Assembly (NCBI GenBank): GCA_012729505.1 | Contig: JAAYDA010000036.1 | Location: forward strand, 1 to 46,403 | DNA from: Syntrophomonadaceae bacterium | GTDB lineage: Bacteria > Bacillota > Syntrophomonadia > Syntrophomonadales > DTU052 | Direction: 5' to 3' | Length of the DNA: 46,403 nucleotides | In this document: positions 5,740 to 33,290 of the stretch, in pieces | How positions within the stretch are numbered: the stretch's first letter is position 1 | How the letters are laid out: the number at the start of each line of letters is the position of its first letter | The notes under the pieces: generated by a model | What the model saw: only the letters and a program-made list of their open reading frames with translations | The model's database searches: none | Told to the model about the DNA's origin: nothing | Translations under genes and position numbers: made by a program

Positions 5740-7071
5740 TTAACTGAGGTAACCCATCTTTTCGGCGGCGAATTTAAGTTCATCCCGGAAATCCGGATGA
5801 GCAATAGAGATTAGCCGGGCCACCCGCGTTTTAATGCTCTGGCCCTTCAATAAAACCGCCCCAAATTCAGTAACCACCCAGTGAACCTCCGTGCGGGAGG
5901 TGGTTACAAAGCTGCCTGGATTAAGCTGAGGCACTATCTTGGAGTGCCTCTCTCCCTTTTTATCAACAAAGGACGACTCCAGACCGAGGAATGATTTGCC
6001 CCCCTTGGACATCCAGGCACCCTGGACAAAGTCGACCTGTCCCCCGGTAGCCGAATACTGGACCGGCCCGATGGATTCAGAGCAGCATTGACCGGTGAGA
6101 TCAACCTGCAGGGTGGCATTGATGGAAATCATGTTGTCATTTTGCGCAATATTATATGGGTTGTTTACAACACCAAGGGTGTGCATCTCAATCATCGGGT
6201 TTTCGTGTACAAAATCATAAAGCTTCCTGGTCCCGGTGGCGAAAGATGCAACCCACTTATTCGGCATGAAGGTTTTCCTGGCACAGGTGATGGCGCCAGC
6301 TTCGTACAATTCCATAAGAACGTCGGGAATTACTTCCGTATGAACTCCCAGATCGCGTTTGTCTTTCAGAGCCTGACCGACTGCGCCCGGAATCCCTCCA
6401 TAACCGATCTGTAAAGTGGCACCGTCAGGAACCATATCCGCAATATATCCGGCCATTATTTCCCATTCTTTTTTGACGGGCGGTGGGGGAAGCTCCGCCA
6501 GAGGCAAATCACATTCTATAACCACATCCACTTCTGATATATGAACGTGGTTGTTGCCGTAGCTTCTTGGCATTTGAGGGTTTACTTCAAGAATAAACAG
6601 GCGCCGGTTTGGGTTTGACTTGGCTATTCCCCAACCAAAGTCCACACTGATTCCAGTGCTGAAAAACCCGTGATTATCCATGGGAGATACGGTAAGAGCT
6701 GAAACCTGCACGGGCCGCAATCCCTCACTGGATATGCGGTCTAAATCGCCGAATTTGGCTGGGGAGTGAGTATGAAAACCCTCCTTCACCCAACCCCGTT
6801 CATCTCCCACAAAAAAAGAATCCCATTCTATTAGTCCCTTTATCGCAGGATCTAGCAGGGGATGGACCGCACCACGATACATGCAAGACGCTAAAACTTT
6901 AGGGTTGTGGAGCTTGCCCTCGATGACTCTGTCTTTCAAGGCGCGGAATAACCCAAGAGGGTGTCCTATGCCGAAGGAGGAACTGATTACCTCGTTATCC
7001 CGGATCATCGCTGCCGCTTCCTCGGCAGTTTTCAATTTGGATTTGTACATATCAAGCCATTTTTGATTCAT
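5740..7071 (-). CDS. Acyl-CoA:acetate CoA-transferase / acetyl-CoA hydrolase family
   Basis: A 443-residue family I-type CoA-transferase of the 4-hydroxybutyrate / butyryl-CoA:acetate group. The sequence LGVHTEVIPD puts the active-site glutamate at E246, and SATGGQVDFVQGA is the conserved glycine-rich CoA-binding segment. The enzyme moves CoA between acyl-CoA and a free acid through a glutamyl-CoA intermediate. In a syntrophic butyrate degrader this would activate butyrate with acetyl-CoA. It is first in a leftward pair with the MaoC-like gene (14-nt gap). ATG at 7071 is preceded by a GGGGGAAAG-like site. The substrate range within the family cannot be fixed by eye. Confidence 0.9.
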   Translation of the reverse strand: MNQKWLDMYKSKLKTAEEAAAMIRDNEVISSSFGIGHPLGLFRALKDRVIEGKLHNPKVLASCMYRGAVHPLLDPAIKGLIEWDSFFVGDERGWVKEGFHTHSPAKFGDLDRISSEGLRPVQVSALTVSPMDNHGFFSTGISVDFGWGIAKSNPNRRLFILEVNPQMPRSYGNNHVHISEVDVVIECDLPLAELPPPPVKKEWEIMAGYIADMVPDGATLQIGYGGIPGAVGQALKDKRDLGVHTEVIPDVLMELYEAGAITCARKTFMPNKWVASFATGTRKLYDFVHENPMIEMHTLGVVNNPYNIAQNDNMISINATLQVDLTGQCCSESIGPVQYSATGGQVDFVQGAWMSKGGKSFLGLESSFVDKKGERHSKIVPQLNPGSFVTTSRTEVHWVVTEFGAVLLKGQSIKTRVARLISIAHPDFRDELKFAAEKMGYLS

Positions 7072-14309: not shown

Positions 14310-15206
14310 CTAACTATTGCTGCTGTTCCGGAGAAAATCCAGGAAGTTGTCCACCGTCTTACGTCGATACCTCTGCTTGGGATAAATCACATAAATATCT
14401 CGGGCAGCTACACCTCCGGCTATTCTTAAAGAGACCACTCGCTCCCTGCGAATCCATTGTTGCACAACATAGCTTGACGCCAGAGCCACCCCCATCTCGG
14501 CCTCTATCGCAGCTACAACAGCCTCGGTACTGCCTAATTCCATCTGGATATTGAGGTCATCTTTCCCTAGGCCCTGCTGGGCCAATATTTCTTCAGTAGC
14601 CATCCGTGTACCCGATCCTTTTTCCCGAAAAACCCATTTTTCCCCAAGCAGCTCCCGAAACTCCACTTGCTCCTTGGATGCCAAAGGATGGTTAGCTGGA
14701 ACCAGAACAACCAGTTCATCCTTTGTCCACTGAATACAGTCTACCTTTCGGTTTTGCAGCTTAGCGCCAACTACACCGATATCAAGTGTACGTTCAGCTA
14801 CTTGAGCAAAAATGTTTTCGGTGTCGGCCACTATCATAGAAATATTTACATTGGGATATTGGTCCTTAAATTCTTTCAGATACTGAGGTAAAATGTACTG
14901 ACCTGGAATGGTACTGGCCCCCAGAAGCAGATTGCCCCGGCAGCTTTCTGAGATATCTTCCATAATGCTGTCTGTTTTTTCCATCACCTTTAATATCTCG
15001 CGGGCACATTGGTACAAGGCATCTCCCGCTACAGTTGTCTTGAGCTTACGACCTGATCTTTCCAATAGCAGAACTCCATAGATACCTTCCAGGGCCTGAA
15101 TCTGTTTGCTTACCGCCGGTTGAGAAAGATTCAGCTCCTCCGCAGTACGGGAAAGATTATGATTCTCAACTACTTTGACATACGTCTTGAATAAAGCCAG
15201 ATTGAT
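14310..15206 (-). CDS. LysR-family transcriptional regulator with non-canonical start
   Basis: A 298-residue LysR regulator: N-terminal winged helix-turn-helix (NLSRTAEELNLSQPAVSKQ, about 17-35) and a C-terminal effector domain beginning GNLLLGASTIPGQYILPQY. The effector half resembles the LysR group linked with selenium or sulfur metabolism. The HTH is encoded upstream of the first TTG (15065), so the gene must start earlier. Between the in-frame TGA at about 15225-15227 and the HTH there is no ATG, GTG or TTG: the only candidates are ATT (15209), ATC (15206) and CTG (15200), behind a near-perfect AGGAGGTGAT. ATC has the best spacing (7 nt) and gives the family-like N-terminus xNLALFKTYVKVVE. 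It starts 18 nt after the sufB-like stop and ends before a terminator, so it is probably co-transcribed with the Fe-S genes. Confidence 0.85.
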   Translation of the reverse strand: MNLALFKTYVKVVENHNLSRTAEELNLSQPAVSKQIQALEGIYGVLLLERSGRKLKTTVAGDALYQCAREILKVMEKTDSIMEDISESCRGNLLLGASTIPGQYILPQYLKEFKDQYPNVNISMIVADTENIFAQVAERTLDIGVVGAKLQNRKVDCIQWTKDELVVLVPANHPLASKEQVEFRELLGEKWVFREKGSGTRMATEEILAQQGLGKDDLNIQMELGSTEAVVAAIEAEMGVALASSYVVQQWIRRERVVSLRIAGGVAARDIYVIYPKQRYRRKTVDNFLDFLRNSSNS

Positions 15207-15224: not shown

Positions 15225-16145
15225 TCATCTCAAAAAGGCTGCCAGAATAGTGTCTATCGCCTCCTGTTCATCAAGTCCCAACGTCATCAGCTTAATCAAC
15301 TGATCACCAGCAATCCTTCCGATGGCCGCTTCATGGGTAAGGACCGCTTCAGCGCTTTCCGCCGTAAGTCCCGGGATAGCCCGGATTTGAGCAGCTCCCA
15401 TGATAATCGAATCACATTCAACATGACCACTGCAGCGATTCTTCCCCACCAGAGCAGCCTTGAACAACTGATTGGAATTATCCTGAGCAACAGTTCTGGA
15501 CAGGACTTGCCCCGAAGCATCTAACCCCAAAAGATTAAGAGTTACGTTAGAAACCGCCTCCTGTTCCCCGTGAGTCAGAAGCCTTTCTATTATCTTAAGC
15601 GCCCCTCTGTCATGTATAAAAGCATCAGTATTTCGTACGGTATTATCTACTCCTTTGATCTGAACCATTTCCATTTCCACATAGGCGCCATTCTCAACCG
15701 TAACAATAGTAGTCGGATTTAATACACGCCTACCCGTGCCATCTCCCTGGCCATAGTGCCGCTCAATATATTTCAGCCGGGCACCACTTTTCACAAAGAA
15801 CTCATGAATGCCATCATGTTCAGAAACATCTTCCCCCGAATTGTGAATTCCACATCCGGCAATTATGGTTACATCAGCATCCTCACCGATAATAAAAGTA
15901 TTATATACTAAGTCCTTCAACCCACTTTTAGTAAGGATCACTGGTATATGCACCGACTCATCCTTGGTTCCCGGCTTTACCACAATATCAATACCAGGTT
16001 TGTCCTTTTTGGGGATAATCTCAATATTGGCCGAAGACTGTCTGAAACCTTCCCCATCTTTGCGTATATTAAATGCTCCCTGGGGGATACCGTGCAAATC
16101 AGCTATCGTTTCCAGAAGCTTGCTATCAAGAGGGCTGTACTTCAT
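15225..16145 (-). CDS. sufB: Short SufB/SufD-family Fe-S assembly scaffold (SMS-type)
   Basis: A 306-residue SufB/SufD-family protein made almost entirely of the right-handed beta-helix core and C-terminal helices. Classical SufB is about 470 residues and SufD about 420. C-terminal features are GKNRCSGHVECDSIIMG (with Cys and His where SufB/SufD carry cluster-assembly residues), IPGLTAESAEAVLTHEAAIGRI and a final DEQEAIDTILAAFLR. A single short B protein with one ATPase is the layout of the SUF-like minimal system (SMS) of archaea and anaerobic bacteria. The open frame reaches 16196, but ATG at 16145 follows GGGGGTGG and overlaps the last 20 nt of sufC, so translation is coupled. It likely forms a B2C2 complex that builds clusters for the many Fe-S enzymes of this organism. 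Confidence 0.88.
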   Translation of the reverse strand: MKYSPLDSKLLETIADLHGIPQGAFNIRKDGEGFRQSSANIEIIPKKDKPGIDIVVKPGTKDESVHIPVILTKSGLKDLVYNTFIIGEDADVTIIAGCGIHNSGEDVSEHDGIHEFFVKSGARLKYIERHYGQGDGTGRRVLNPTTIVTVENGAYVEMEMVQIKGVDNTVRNTDAFIHDRGALKIIERLLTHGEQEAVSNVTLNLLGLDASGQVLSRTVAQDNSNQLFKAALVGKNRCSGHVECDSIIMGAAQIRAIPGLTAESAEAVLTHEAAIGRIAGDQLIKLMTLGLDEQEAIDTILAAFLR

Positions 16146-16884
16146 AAAAACCACCCCCACACTGATTACGTATCTGGCAATCACAAATGATATCATCTCT
16201 TATCAACGGCCAAATAGCATTAGTTGGACCCTGCTCCTGGATTTCACCATCAGCAACTAAAACAAGCTCATCACAAACCGGAAGAAATTGCTCATTATGG
16301 GATATGATCACAGCAGTCCGGTTAGCCCCGCCGCGATGCCTGGTTACAATCAAATTAATCAGTTTTTGAATGGTCCACAAATCCACACCGGCTTCAGGCT
16401 CGTCAAAAATAGTAAGCTGGGATTCCTTGGCCAGAACCTGGGCTACCTCCAGGCGTTTAGTTTCCCCCCCGCTAAGATTGGCGCCCAAATCTCTCGCCAA
16501 ATAGTCCTCCGGACATAGCCCAACATCCCGCAAATACCCTCTGATACTCATTTCATCAATACCAGGTTTAGCAATACGCATTACCTCTTCAACCTGTATC
16601 CCCTTGAAGCGAGGAGGATTTTGAAAGGCATAGGCCAGTCCCTTGCGGGCTCGTTCAGTGATACTTAGATTAGTAATATCTTCTCCATTAAATAAAACCT
16701 GTCCCTGGGTAGCCGAAAATATACCCATTATCACCTTGGCAATCGATGTCTTGCCACCGCCATTAGGGCCGGTTATCCCATACAGCTTACCCTCTTCCAA
16801 GGTAAGATTAATGTTGCGCAATATTTCCTTGGCTTCGCCACTTTCCCCATTTAAACTTAGTCCAATATTTCTAAGCTCTAACAC
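16126..16884 (-). CDS. sufC: SufC-family Fe-S assembly ATPase
   Basis: A 252-residue ABC-type ATPase of the SufC family. Walker A is GPNGGGKTS, the signature is LSGGETKRLEVAQ, Walker B LTIFDEPEAGVD and the switch His lies in VIISHNE. No transmembrane partner is nearby; the partner is the SufB-like scaffold whose start overlaps its end. The C-terminus has an extra cysteine cluster, CDC and a further C (about residues 234-241: DDIICDCQIRNQCGGG), not part of the usual ABC fold. The start is GTG at 16884 with GGAGGGG 7 nt upstream. The gene follows mrp by 34 nt. Confidence 0.92.
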   Translation of the reverse strand: MLELRNIGLSLNGESGEAKEILRNINLTLEEGKLYGITGPNGGGKTSIAKVIMGIFSATQGQVLFNGEDITNLSITERARKGLAYAFQNPPRFKGIQVEEVMRIAKPGIDEMSIRGYLRDVGLCPEDYLARDLGANLSGGETKRLEVAQVLAKESQLTIFDEPEAGVDLWTIQKLINLIVTRHRGGANRTAVIISHNEQFLPVCDELVLVADGEIQEQGPTNAIWPLIRDDIICDCQIRNQCGGGFYEVQPS

Positions 16885-16918
16885 TATTCATCCCCTCCTC
16901 CAGGTGTCAGCAATTCCA

Positions 16919-17767
16919 TTATAGTCCCTGCCCATCCGCCAATATTTTAACTAAGTTAGTCACCTCTTCACTGGAATAACCTTCAATTTTGCCTTCATCC
17001 ATCATCCGGCTTAACTGAGGATCCCAGCCCAAAGCAGCCAACAAGGGAATATCCATCTGCTGTGCCGCCTCATCAGCATGAGAAACTCCAAAAAGCTCAA
17101 GCTTCTCATCACAATGCGGACACGAAGCATAACTCATATTTTCAACCAACCCCAAGACAGGAATATTTAATTTATTAGCCATTTTGACCGCTTTTTTAAC
17201 CACCATTAAAACCAATTCCTGGGGTGATGATACTACCACTATTCCATCTACCGGAAGCGACTGCATCACCGTAAGGGGAACATCCCCTGTTCCGGGCGGG
17301 AGATCAACCAGTAAATAATCCAGATCCCGCCAATCAGTTTCACCCCAAAACTGTTTCACCATTCCGGCCAACACCGGACCTCTCCAGATTACCGGCTCAT
17401 CTTCGTTAGGAAGAAGAAGATTAACCGACATAATTTTGATGCCCTGTTCAGTAGTCGAAGGAATAATCCCATAATCAGTAGCTTTGAGATTGCCTCCCTT
17501 TACACCGAAAATCCTAGGTATAGTAGGCCCGGTAATATCAGCATCCAGGACACCCACCTTGTAACCCAGCTGATTCATCCCTACCGCTAAAAGACCGGTA
17601 ATCGTTGATTTCCCCACTCCACCCTTGCCACTCATTACCGCTATGACCCGCTTGATCTTGTTAAGCTTCCCCAGAAGATTTTGTTCCGGCAAAGTGCAGC
17701 TTTCGCTGGCACATCCGCCAGCCTGATTCTGCGAACAAGTCTGACATTTTGTTTTATCTTCAGCCAT
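16919..17767 (-). CDS. mrp: Mrp/Nbp35-type P-loop Fe-S carrier ATPase
   Basis: A 282-residue Mrp (ApbC/Nbp35) ATPase that binds and transfers [4Fe-4S] clusters to apo-enzymes. It has a deviant Walker A GKGGVGKST (about 47-55), DADITGPTIPRIFG, LLVDLPPGTGD and the C-terminal CPHC pair of the family. The N-terminus adds a four-Cys segment (C8, C11, C19, C24). It lies between prsA and sufC in the same direction, so cluster assembly and delivery are encoded together. ATG at 17767 follows AAAGGGTGAAG. Confidence 0.92.
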   Translation of the reverse strand: MAEDKTKCQTCSQNQAGGCASESCTLPEQNLLGKLNKIKRVIAVMSGKGGVGKSTITGLLAVGMNQLGYKVGVLDADITGPTIPRIFGVKGGNLKATDYGIIPSTTEQGIKIMSVNLLLPNEDEPVIWRGPVLAGMVKQFWGETDWRDLDYLLVDLPPGTGDVPLTVMQSLPVDGIVVVSSPQELVLMVVKKAVKMANKLNIPVLGLVENMSYASCPHCDEKLELFGVSHADEAAQQMDIPLLAALGWDPQLSRMMDEGKIEGYSSEEVTNLVKILADGQGL

Positions 17768-17817
17768 TTCTTCACCCTTTTCTTTAATTCCCTTTTTCCA
17801 GCCAGCCGACTCGTTAA

Positions 17818-18738
17818 CTAATTAGTCTTGATATCACCTTCCGAACGAAGCTTTTCTATTAAATCCTGCCACGCCTGCTCTTCCTTGGCTCGCAGAGTCA
17901 AAGACTGAGCCTGATCTTTGACCTGCTCAAAAGCCTCTATTTTGGCTGCCCGTTCCTCAAATGCCTTGATAACGTGAAAACCGAACTCAGATTGGACCGG
18001 TTCTTCGGTCATCTCTCCAGGCTTCAGTTTCAGTGCCGCCGTTTTAAATTCATTAACAAAATTAGTCTGCTCATTTATAAAGCCCAAATCCCCCCCGGAT
18101 TCCTGAGCATTTTGTTCAGTTGACAATTCTTTGGCCAGCTCCGCAAAATCTTCTCCATCCTTGAGTCTTTTGATCACATCCTCAGCTTCAGCCTTAGTAT
18201 CCAGCAATATATGCGATACTCTCAACTCATAAGGATTACCAAAATACTCAGGATAGTCCTCATAAAACTTTTTAACCTCCTCGACAGTTACCTCAACTCC
18301 GGACATAACCTTCTCATACAATTCGTCTATGAGAACTTGGTTGTGCATCTCCTCTTCAAATTCCTCTTCAGTGTAACCCGCAGATGATAAAAAGCCTTTA
18401 AAGCCTTCAGTTCCCGCTGCTTCTTTAAATTGGTCGATAGCAGTGCTAACTTCTTCTTCCGTAGCCTCCATACCCTGTCTTGCCGCTTCCTGGAGCAGCA
18501 AAGTCTGATCAATCAAGCTTTCCAAAGCCGCTTCCCTGATTTGTTCCATAAATTCAGCATCTTCACGCGGATCCGTTCCGTAAGTCTGCTGGGCCTGAAC
18601 TACAAATAGGTTTACAACCTTGTCCAACTGGTTCTGCTTCAACTTCTCCCCATTCACAGTAGCAACATTATCTCCGCATCCTGCCAGTAGTACGCCAATC
18701 ATAAGTACTAATCCGACGACAACAAGTCTCTTTTTCAT
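17818..18738 (-). CDS. prsA: PrsA-like foldase lipoprotein (peptidyl-prolyl isomerase)
   Basis: A 306-residue extracytoplasmic foldase. The N-terminus is a lipoprotein signal peptide with lipobox LAGC (Cys at about residue 21). A SurA-N-like chaperone region follows (about 30-165), then a parvulin domain (ELRVSHILLDTKAEAED, GGDLGFINEQ, SEFGFHVIKAFEE; about 170-270). It should sit on the outer face of the membrane and help folding of secreted proteins. Strong AGAGGAGG precedes ATG 18738. It is first in the leftward cluster with mrp-sufC-sufB-lysR; the gap to mrp is 50 nt, so co-transcription is possible but not proven. Confidence 0.88.
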   Translation of the reverse strand: MKKRLVVVGLVLMIGVLLAGCGDNVATVNGEKLKQNQLDKVVNLFVVQAQQTYGTDPREDAEFMEQIREAALESLIDQTLLLQEAARQGMEATEEEVSTAIDQFKEAAGTEGFKGFLSSAGYTEEEFEEEMHNQVLIDELYEKVMSGVEVTVEEVKKFYEDYPEYFGNPYELRVSHILLDTKAEAEDVIKRLKDGEDFAELAKELSTEQNAQESGGDLGFINEQTNFVNEFKTAALKLKPGEMTEEPVQSEFGFHVIKAFEERAAKIEAFEQVKDQAQSLTLRAKEEQAWQDLIEKLRSEGDIKTN

Positions 18739-18915
18739 AAGATCCTCCTCTTCCCTCGTGAAAGCCCTGTGAAAGACCGGGTCTTATGAACTAATCTGCC
18801 CGTTCCACCAATACTATTTTGCAGGCTGGAATAATTCACAGTTATTTTCAATGTTAGTCAAATTATATATTGACAGTTGGCAGGCCGCAAGTTCTCGATT
18901 CATATTCGACTTCAA

Positions 18916-30792: not shown

Positions 30793-30952
30793 ATTTGACC
30801 TTCGGCTCTCTTCATTCCTCAGTCACTCCTGGAATCAGGATGTATCGAGACTTCTGACAATCCTATTTATAATTACTCGAATTTATAGGTTTACTAGGGC
30901 ATTTTAATAAAGTAAAGTATACTTGAATATATTTATTGAGGAGGTTGGGGAA

Positions 30953-31777
30953 TTGCCAAGAAAAAACATAATGCTGTTACTGTTGTTAATGTCCCTTGCT
31001 GCAGTCGTCCTTTTAGCCGGTTGTGCTAAAGAGCCCGCTGAAAATGACGGGGTCGATAGCTCCTTGACCAGGATCCAGGAACAGGGATATTTCGTGGTTG
31101 GCCTGGATGACGCTTTCCCGCCGATGGGATTCAGAGAACAAGGAACCAACGAAATAATTGGCTTTGACATCGATCTGGCCAAGGCAGTCGCTGAGAGAAT
31201 GGGAGTAGAAGCCCAGTTCACCCCTGTTATATGGGATACTATCGGAGATACTTTGAACAAGGGCGATATTGATGTGATTTGGAACGGATGTACTATTACT
31301 GAACCAAGACTCGAAATAATGAACTTTACCAAGCCCTACCTGGGCAATCGTCAAATTATCATAGTGCAGAAAGACTCCCCTATTACTGCTAAAACAGACC
31401 TGGCCGGAAAGACTATCGGTTTGCAGGCCGGCAGCAGTGCCAAGATAGCAGTTGAAAAAGACGCTCCTACTTACGAATCATTCGGCAGATTGGTGGAATT
31501 CACCAGCAACGACGAAGCTCTGCTGGACCTGGGGGCCGGCCGTCTGGACGCAGTGGTGGTTGACGAAGTTGTGGGCCGCTACTATACTACCCTAAAGCCC
31601 GATACTTACACGGTTCTCACTGAAGATTTCGGCGACGAGGAGTATGGTGTAGGGGTAAGAAAAGCTGATGAAGCATTTCTCGCCGAACTGAATAAAACCC
31701 TGGATGCCATGAAAGAGGACGGCACCGCCGCTCAGATATCGGAAAAATGGTTTGGGGAAGATATAATCGCGAGATAA
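30953..31777 (+). CDS. Polar amino-acid ABC transporter, substrate-binding lipoprotein
   Basis: A 274-residue family-3 solute-binding protein. A lipoprotein signal peptide (LLLLLMSLAAVVLLAGC) tethers it outside the membrane. Conserved ligand-binding segments are GFDIDLAKAVAERMG, VIWDTIGDTLNKGDIDVIWNG and KTIGLQAGSSA. The frame is open to 30923, but TTG at 30953 has GAGGAGG 8 nt ahead and gives a normal signal peptide. First gene of a binding protein-permease-ATPase unit. Confidence 0.9.
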   Translation: MPRKNIMLLLLLMSLAAVVLLAGCAKEPAENDGVDSSLTRIQEQGYFVVGLDDAFPPMGFREQGTNEIIGFDIDLAKAVAERMGVEAQFTPVIWDTIGDTLNKGDIDVIWNGCTITEPRLEIMNFTKPYLGNRQIIIVQKDSPITAKTDLAGKTIGLQAGSSAKIAVEKDAPTYESFGRLVEFTSNDEALLDLGAGRLDAVVVDEVVGRYYTTLKPDTYTVLTEDFGDEEYGVGVRKADEAFLAELNKTLDAMKEDGTAAQISEKWFGEDIIAR

Positions 31778-31865: not shown

Positions 31866-32510
31866 ATGGAATATCTGCTGATCTTAATTCCTTCACTATT
31901 GGAAGGAACAGCCCTGACCCTCAAATTTTTCTTTATTACGCTGGTGATTTCACTGCCTCTGGGTATGATTGGGGCCGTGGCGAGGATATCCAAATTTCGC
32001 CCCCTCAACATCTTTATGCAGTTTTATATCTGGGTTTTTCGCGGCACTCCTCTGCTTTTGCAGGTGCTCTTTGTATACTTTGGACTATGGCTGCAATTCG
32101 GTATCACACTTGATCAGATGACAGCAGCTTTACTGGCCTTCATCCTCAACTACGCCGCTTATCTGGCGGAGGTTTTCCGTTCGGGGATTCAGTCCATTGA
32201 CCGCGGGCAATTTGAGGCAGCCGATGTTCTGGGGCTTTCTCGCTTTCAGACTATGAAAACCATTATTATGCCGCAAATGTTTAAGCGGGTCTTACCGCCG
32301 GTCAGCAATGAGGTTATCAACCTGATTAAAGATACCGCCCTTATTTATGCCATCGGAATAACCGAACTCCTCCGGGCCGCAAAGATAGCAGCTGTGAGAG
32401 ATTTCGTTTTTACACCTTTTTTGGTGGCGGCTGTTTTCTATCTGATCATGACGGCGGTAATTCAATTATTCTTTAAGTGGCTGGAAGCCAAAAATGATTA
32501 TTATCATTAG
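31866..32510 (+). CDS. Polar amino-acid ABC transporter permease (HisM type)
   Basis: A 214-residue inner-membrane permease with about five membrane segments and the EAA motif (DRGQFEAADVLGLSRFQTM, about 110-128) that docks the ATPase. The N-terminal TM pattern and WVFRGTPLLLQ match glutamine/histidine-type permeases. ATG follows AGAAGGGAA. A single permease suggests a homodimer. Its stop TAG is followed in the same frame by the ATPase coding sequence. Confidence 0.92.
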   Translation: MEYLLILIPSLLEGTALTLKFFFITLVISLPLGMIGAVARISKFRPLNIFMQFYIWVFRGTPLLLQVLFVYFGLWLQFGITLDQMTAALLAFILNYAAYLAEVFRSGIQSIDRGQFEAADVLGLSRFQTMKTIIMPQMFKRVLPPVSNEVINLIKDTALIYAIGITELLRAAKIAAVRDFVFTPFLVAAVFYLIMTAVIQLFFKWLEAKNDYYH

Positions 32511-32525
32511 GAGTGGATTAACATA

Positions 32526-33290
32526 CTGATACTGGAAGCATGTGAAATATATAAAAATTTTGGTTCCCTTGAAGTATTGAAGGGAGTATCTCTGCAAATT
32601 AATAAGGGCGAAATTATTGCCATCATCGGTCAATCCGGCTCAGGCAAGAGCACTTTTTTGCGCTGCTTGAACAGCCTGGAAACCGTTGATCGGGGCAGTA
32701 TTGAAATAGATGGGCAATTCCTGGTGAAAACCGGCCCGGATGGTAAAGCTGTATATGCCAACACCGTGGATGCGGCCCAGATGAGGCGCAAAATCGGCAT
32801 GGTTTTTCAAAACTTCAACTTGTTTCCCCATAAGTCAGTTCTGGAAAATCTGATCCTTGCTCCTATTCTGGTGCAAAAAACCGATCCGGCCGAAGCCGAG
32901 AAGAGAGCACGGATTCTTTTGGAAAAGGTGGGTCTGGAGCTTAAAGTGGACAATTACCCGTTTGAATTGTCGGGAGGTCAGCAGCAACGGGTAGCAATTG
33001 CCCGGGCCTTGGCCATGAACCCTGATATACTCTGCTTTGACGAGCCCACTTCGGCATTGGATCCCGTATTAACCGGTGAAGTTCTTAAAGTTATGAAGGA
33101 TCTGGCCTTGGAACGAATGACGATGGTGGTCGTCACCCATGAAATTGGGTTTGCCCGCGAAGTAGCTCATCGGGTTCTTTATATGGAAGATGGCTATATA
33201 GTTGAAGAAGGTCCTGCCGAAGCGGTATTGCTTAACCCCCGGCAAGAGAGCACCAAAGCCTTCCTGAGCACAGTATTAATGGCTAGGTAG
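32526..33290 (+). CDS. Polar amino-acid ABC transporter ATPase (GlnQ type), non-canonical start
   Basis: About 254 residues. Walker [10 protein letters not shown], signature [15 protein letters not shown], Walker [13 protein letters not shown] and switch VVTHE are intact, and the insert after Walker A ([18 protein letters not shown]) is typical of this subgroup. Protein-like sequence continues upstream of the first TTG (32577) to the permease stop TAG (32508-32510): [19 protein letters not shown] includes the conserved first strand and the A-loop aromatic. No ATG, GTG or TTG lies between. Candidates are ATT 32517, ATA 32523 and CTG 32526; CTG gives the family-like N-terminus and stands 12 nt after AGGAG. 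Stop-codon readthrough from the permease is an alternative because both share a frame. Confidence 0.88.

Follow-up and report, generated by a model that had tools for sequence, protein, structure and literature searches.

In the genome of a Syntrophomonadaceae bacterium, the ancestral ATG of an amino-acid ABC transporter ATPase gene appears to have become ATA, and translation would still begin there at reduced efficiency, guided by an unchanged Shine-Dalgarno (SD) sequence. This explanation is held with moderate confidence, and the same confidence extends, as part of the whole, to the ATPase being made as an ordinary protein of its own from a three-gene operon for amino-acid uptake. Coordinates without a contig refer to the window, the whole 46,403-nt stretch that was analysed; the genome it comes from is called G000. 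The features at the junction are as follows.

30953–31777, plus strand: solute-binding protein SBP_bac_3 of the same operon, with a probable, inferred TTG start at 30953 (longest ORF 30923–31777)
31866–32510, plus strand: amino-acid ABC permease (BPD_transp_1, HEQRo_perm_3TM), stop TAG 32508–32510
32509–32513, plus strand: AGGAG, the SD sequence of the ATPase gene, which shares bases with the permease stop (TAGGAG)
32523–32525, plus strand: ATA at the position of the ancestral ATG, proposed start codon, 9 nt behind AGGAG
32526–32528, plus strand: CTG, next-best candidate start, at 12 nt from AGGAG
32523–33290, plus strand: polar amino-acid uptake ABC ATPase, with Walker A (residue 36), signature (150), Walker B (169) and H-loop (203)
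32559–32561, plus strand: F13, the aromatic residue of the A-loop, absent from a product started at TTG 32577

The permease–ATPase junction

In the ORF reading of the window, the frame that is closed by the permease TAG is then open to a stop at 33288–33290. After the TAG it reads GAG TGG ATT AAC ATA CTG ATA CTG GAA GCA TGT GAA ATA TAT AAA AAT TTT GGT, and reading the frame codon by codon gave no in-frame ATG, GTG or TTG between the TAG and TTG 32577, confirming the claim of an earlier, sequence-only reading that the ATPase lies directly after the permease stop, in the same frame and without a canonical start. ATA 32523 follows the permease stop by 12 nt and has normal SD spacing behind AGGAG, and the mRNA structure around the start was ordinary (z 0.03). 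Counting against the ATA start, the SD is without compensating strengthening, in contrast to that of the LysR gene described below.

The order was searched for permease–ATPase pairs in the same arrangement, 29 of which were readable across the junction. The codon aligned with ATA 32523, for which an ATG had been proposed as a check, was ATG in all 29 syntenic relatives, making the window genome the sole lineage of 30 with ATA, a single transition away; the ATA is thus aligned with the canonical start of its orthologues in a gene with no usable canonical start of its own. Orthologues with a canonical start in this gap, one of the two things that the earlier reading had named as refuting it, are therefore present; the other was a base error in the assembly, considered below. 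In 27/29 relatives the ATG was found 10–14 nt after the permease stop and 7–11 nt after the SD core, while the remaining two had a longer gap and their own SD. The permease stop was TAG in 29/29, and its conservation is explained by its role in the ATPase SD, in 24 of these genomes as TAGGAG.

It had been proposed that a CTG, ATA or ATT start is used behind AGGAG; the non-canonical start stood, and the choice was narrowed to ATA 32523–32525, the other candidates fitting worse. ATT 32517 follows the SD too closely, at 3 nt, and ATA 32529 lies even farther away than the CTG. CUG is a near-cognate start codon, and beginning at CTG 32526–32528, the codon after the ATA, would change the product by a single residue, but its 12-nt distance from AGGAG compares with 7–11 nt in the relatives, none of which (0/29) starts at the equivalent codon; a CTG start is considered improbable.

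The same earlier reading had also suggested that some ribosomes read through the TAG to make a permease–ATPase fusion, and the frame is indeed open across the stop in the window genome. Among the 29 relatives, however, the ATPase frame relative to the permease was 0, +1 and +2 in 9, 7 and 13 cases, placing it in another frame in 20. Of the four family relatives, three (G001, G003 and G004) have TAG GAG TGA, with a second in-frame stop. The conserved frame-0 arrangement that read-through requires was therefore not found, the TAG is conserved as part of the SD, and the check for permease–ATPase fusions returned none in the relatives compared. Read-through was rejected on the frames in relatives and is given almost no weight. 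On this comparison it is by accident that the two genes share a frame in the window, TGA having become TGG here, because all three relative frames occur and family relatives carry the second stop.

For the preferred ATA start, the proposed sequence of events is one ATG-to-ATA transition in the lineage of the window genome, after which initiation with fMet would take place at the ATA, directed by the unchanged AGGAG overlapping the permease stop. Independent initiation on the gene's own SD would be a better model than termination–reinitiation, because coupling is reduced at such an intergenic distance: termination–reinitiation falls off at about +13/+14 nt, and independent initiation is favoured for pairs at about +10 nt (PMC10666635). 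No special aid to the weak ATA from termination–reinitiation is claimed. We infer that ribosomes of this organism would use AUA, with lowered ATPase output.

Integrity of the ATPase gene

The ATPase is preceded by the solute-binding protein and the permease, and the next gene, on the opposite strand, is rubrerythrin-like. Its Walker A, signature, Walker B and H-loop motifs are all intact, and its PAAT-type similarity places it in the polar amino-acid uptake family; the best NCBIfam scores (EhuA, TcyN, GlnQ) all fell below the equivalog cutoff, hence the assignment is at family level, without a substrate. Counted from ATA 32523, F13 aligns with the aromatic residue in HisP 'KRYG' and ArtP 'KSFG', and residues 4–13, encoded 5' of the first canonical codon, are conserved relative to the solved ArtP and HisP structures. 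The expectation that a start at TTG 32577 would cut off the A-loop strand was borne out by this alignment, in which F13 and the first strand would be lost.

The ORF is uninterrupted, with no stop or frameshift, and its product is 80–83% identical to those of family relatives. In the family comparison pN/pS was 0.14–0.17 for the ATPase and 0.14–0.15 for the permease, values that are ratios of proportions only, with synonymous sites near saturation. An old pseudogene is argued against because the ORF is intact, its motifs are kept and its pN/pS is like that of the permease. That the gene is intact and constrained argues that AUA is probably used as its weak start.

Recent loss of function, on the other hand, may be compatible with an intact ORF and such pN/pS values. 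The gene would then be silent, or yield a fragment from TTG 32577, with paralogous ATPases elsewhere serving the transporter. Gene decay often begins with a start-loss mutation, and related ATPases are present on G000 contigs C35 and C30. Against this, the ATPase has no other lesion and is as constrained as the permease, and TTG 32577, rejected as a start, has no SD before it and would give a product without the A-loop; we regard recent start loss as quite unlikely.

Assembly quality and other candidate AUH starts in the family

Two readings of the ATA are still in contention, a genuine AUA start and a base error. A sequencing or assembly error at a genomic ATG would account for an ATA seen in just one lineage of 30 and one transition away from ATG, in a genus represented by one genome. 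Scanning of genome contigs gave no second strain, the relatives being at most 61% identical, and the assembly was checked indirectly by comparing about 436 kb of G000 with about 1.28 Mb of the family relative G003. Among 113 well-matched proteins (about 40,000 codons), no frame-split gene was found and there was one internal disruption, an odd 51-nt insertion with two stops, which counts on the side of an error; with no other internal stops, the assembly otherwise looks clean, which counts against it. A base error is judged unlikely, though it keeps a real share of the probability.

The disruption itself, on the minus strand of G000 contig 18 at about 5960–6015, is in frame and lies immediately ahead of the conserved motif CHWCHVM of a thioredoxin-like protein, which we take to be DUF255-like. 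It may be a real insertion or an assembly fault.

The comparison was also read for other non-canonical starts. Among 144 compared pairs, 27 were flagged, and by hand all but three of these were shadow frames or alignments into the leader. The three genes whose conserved N-terminus offers no canonical start were the ATPase, a LysR regulator and holA. The basis for the rate of AUH starts is the roughly 436 kb of the window genome that were compared. The starts considered, together with that of infC, are as follows.

14310–15206, minus strand: selenium metabolism-associated LysR regulator (NF040786, above cutoff), ATC start behind AGGAGGTGAT
G000 contig 14, 4975–5946: holA (DNA polymerase III delta), apparent ATT start
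G000 contig 51, 1486–1494: infC start region, ATT/ATC behind GGAGGTGAA, conserved across the order

The LysR start region in the window consists of AGGAGGTGAT, a perfect SD, followed by ATT ATC AAT CTG. The start codon aligned as ATC or ATT in 5/5 family genomes, versus ATG, GTG or TTG in 25/25 other genomes of the order; one family genome (G002) has GTG codons 3–4 codons upstream, inside the SD-aligned region. Because five separate assemblies agree, the LysR AUC/AUU codon, as read from these alignments, is not an assembly error and is a firmer example than the ATPase ATA.

Upstream of the LysR gene, on the minus strand at 15228–18783, lie SufB/SufD-like, SufC-like and Mrp/ApbC-like Fe-S assembly genes and a peptidyl-prolyl isomerase, which suggests that a minimal SUF cluster adjoins the regulator.

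For holA, ATC or ATT was found at SD distance in 5/5 family genomes, and an AUC/AUU start is probable; it is less certain than that of LysR because in four of the five a GTG in the same frame stands three codons upstream. For infC, an ATT/ATC start behind GGAGGTGA was seen across the order, and the family also has, two codons ahead of the ATT, an in-frame TTG that is a possible start and the one that gene callers would choose. Since LysR, holA and infC show AUH at the start position, AUH initiation in this family is plausible apart from the ATPase. A broader view, that the family has a relaxed start-codon choice, with AUA, AUC or AUU in several ordinary genes (LysR, holA and the ABC ATPase, besides infC), perhaps under IF3-level control, and with gene callers truncating or missing all of them, is put forward as speculation and is more doubtful than not by a wide measure.

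Relation to known non-canonical starts

Should the ATA prove real, it would be a further natural AUA start, this time belonging to a transporter ATPase, and would show cleanly that an intact gene can tolerate a start-codon mutation. Standard gene callers would either miss this gene or cut it back to TTG 32577. The LysR AUC/AUU start makes start-codon tolerance in the family directly testable.

The encoded protein is like ArtP (2olj, 3c41, 4yms) and HisP (1b0u), the window ATPase differing only in its start codon. Natural AUA starts are already known from S. aureus, where they were mapped in infC, ccpN and citZ (NCTC 8325 lineage), with output of about 10% of AUG and up to 30% for ccpN in rich medium (PMC13009471); the ATPase would add one more case. 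Start codons of the AUU/AUC/AUA type are repressed by IF3, and the non-canonical start of infC is itself already known (PMC5472188).

Like the ATPase, infC and ccpN have an AUH start (AUU/AUC/AUA) behind an SD (PMC13009471, PMC5472188), but theirs are long conserved and regulatory (IF3 autocontrol and catabolite control), whereas the ATPase ATA occurs in one genome only. The GTC start of Streptomyces sigR is likewise natural, non-canonical and overlooked by gene callers; unlike the ATPase ATA, it is a different codon, is conserved and has been shown to be under IF3 control (PMC5472188). The nearest parallel is S. aureus citZ, an ordinary metabolic gene whose AUA start is confined to one lineage and works at about a tenth of AUG in reporters (PMC13009471). 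The citZ start was established by ribosome profiling and reporters, whereas that of the window ATPase, which has no extended SD, is proposed from sequence comparison.
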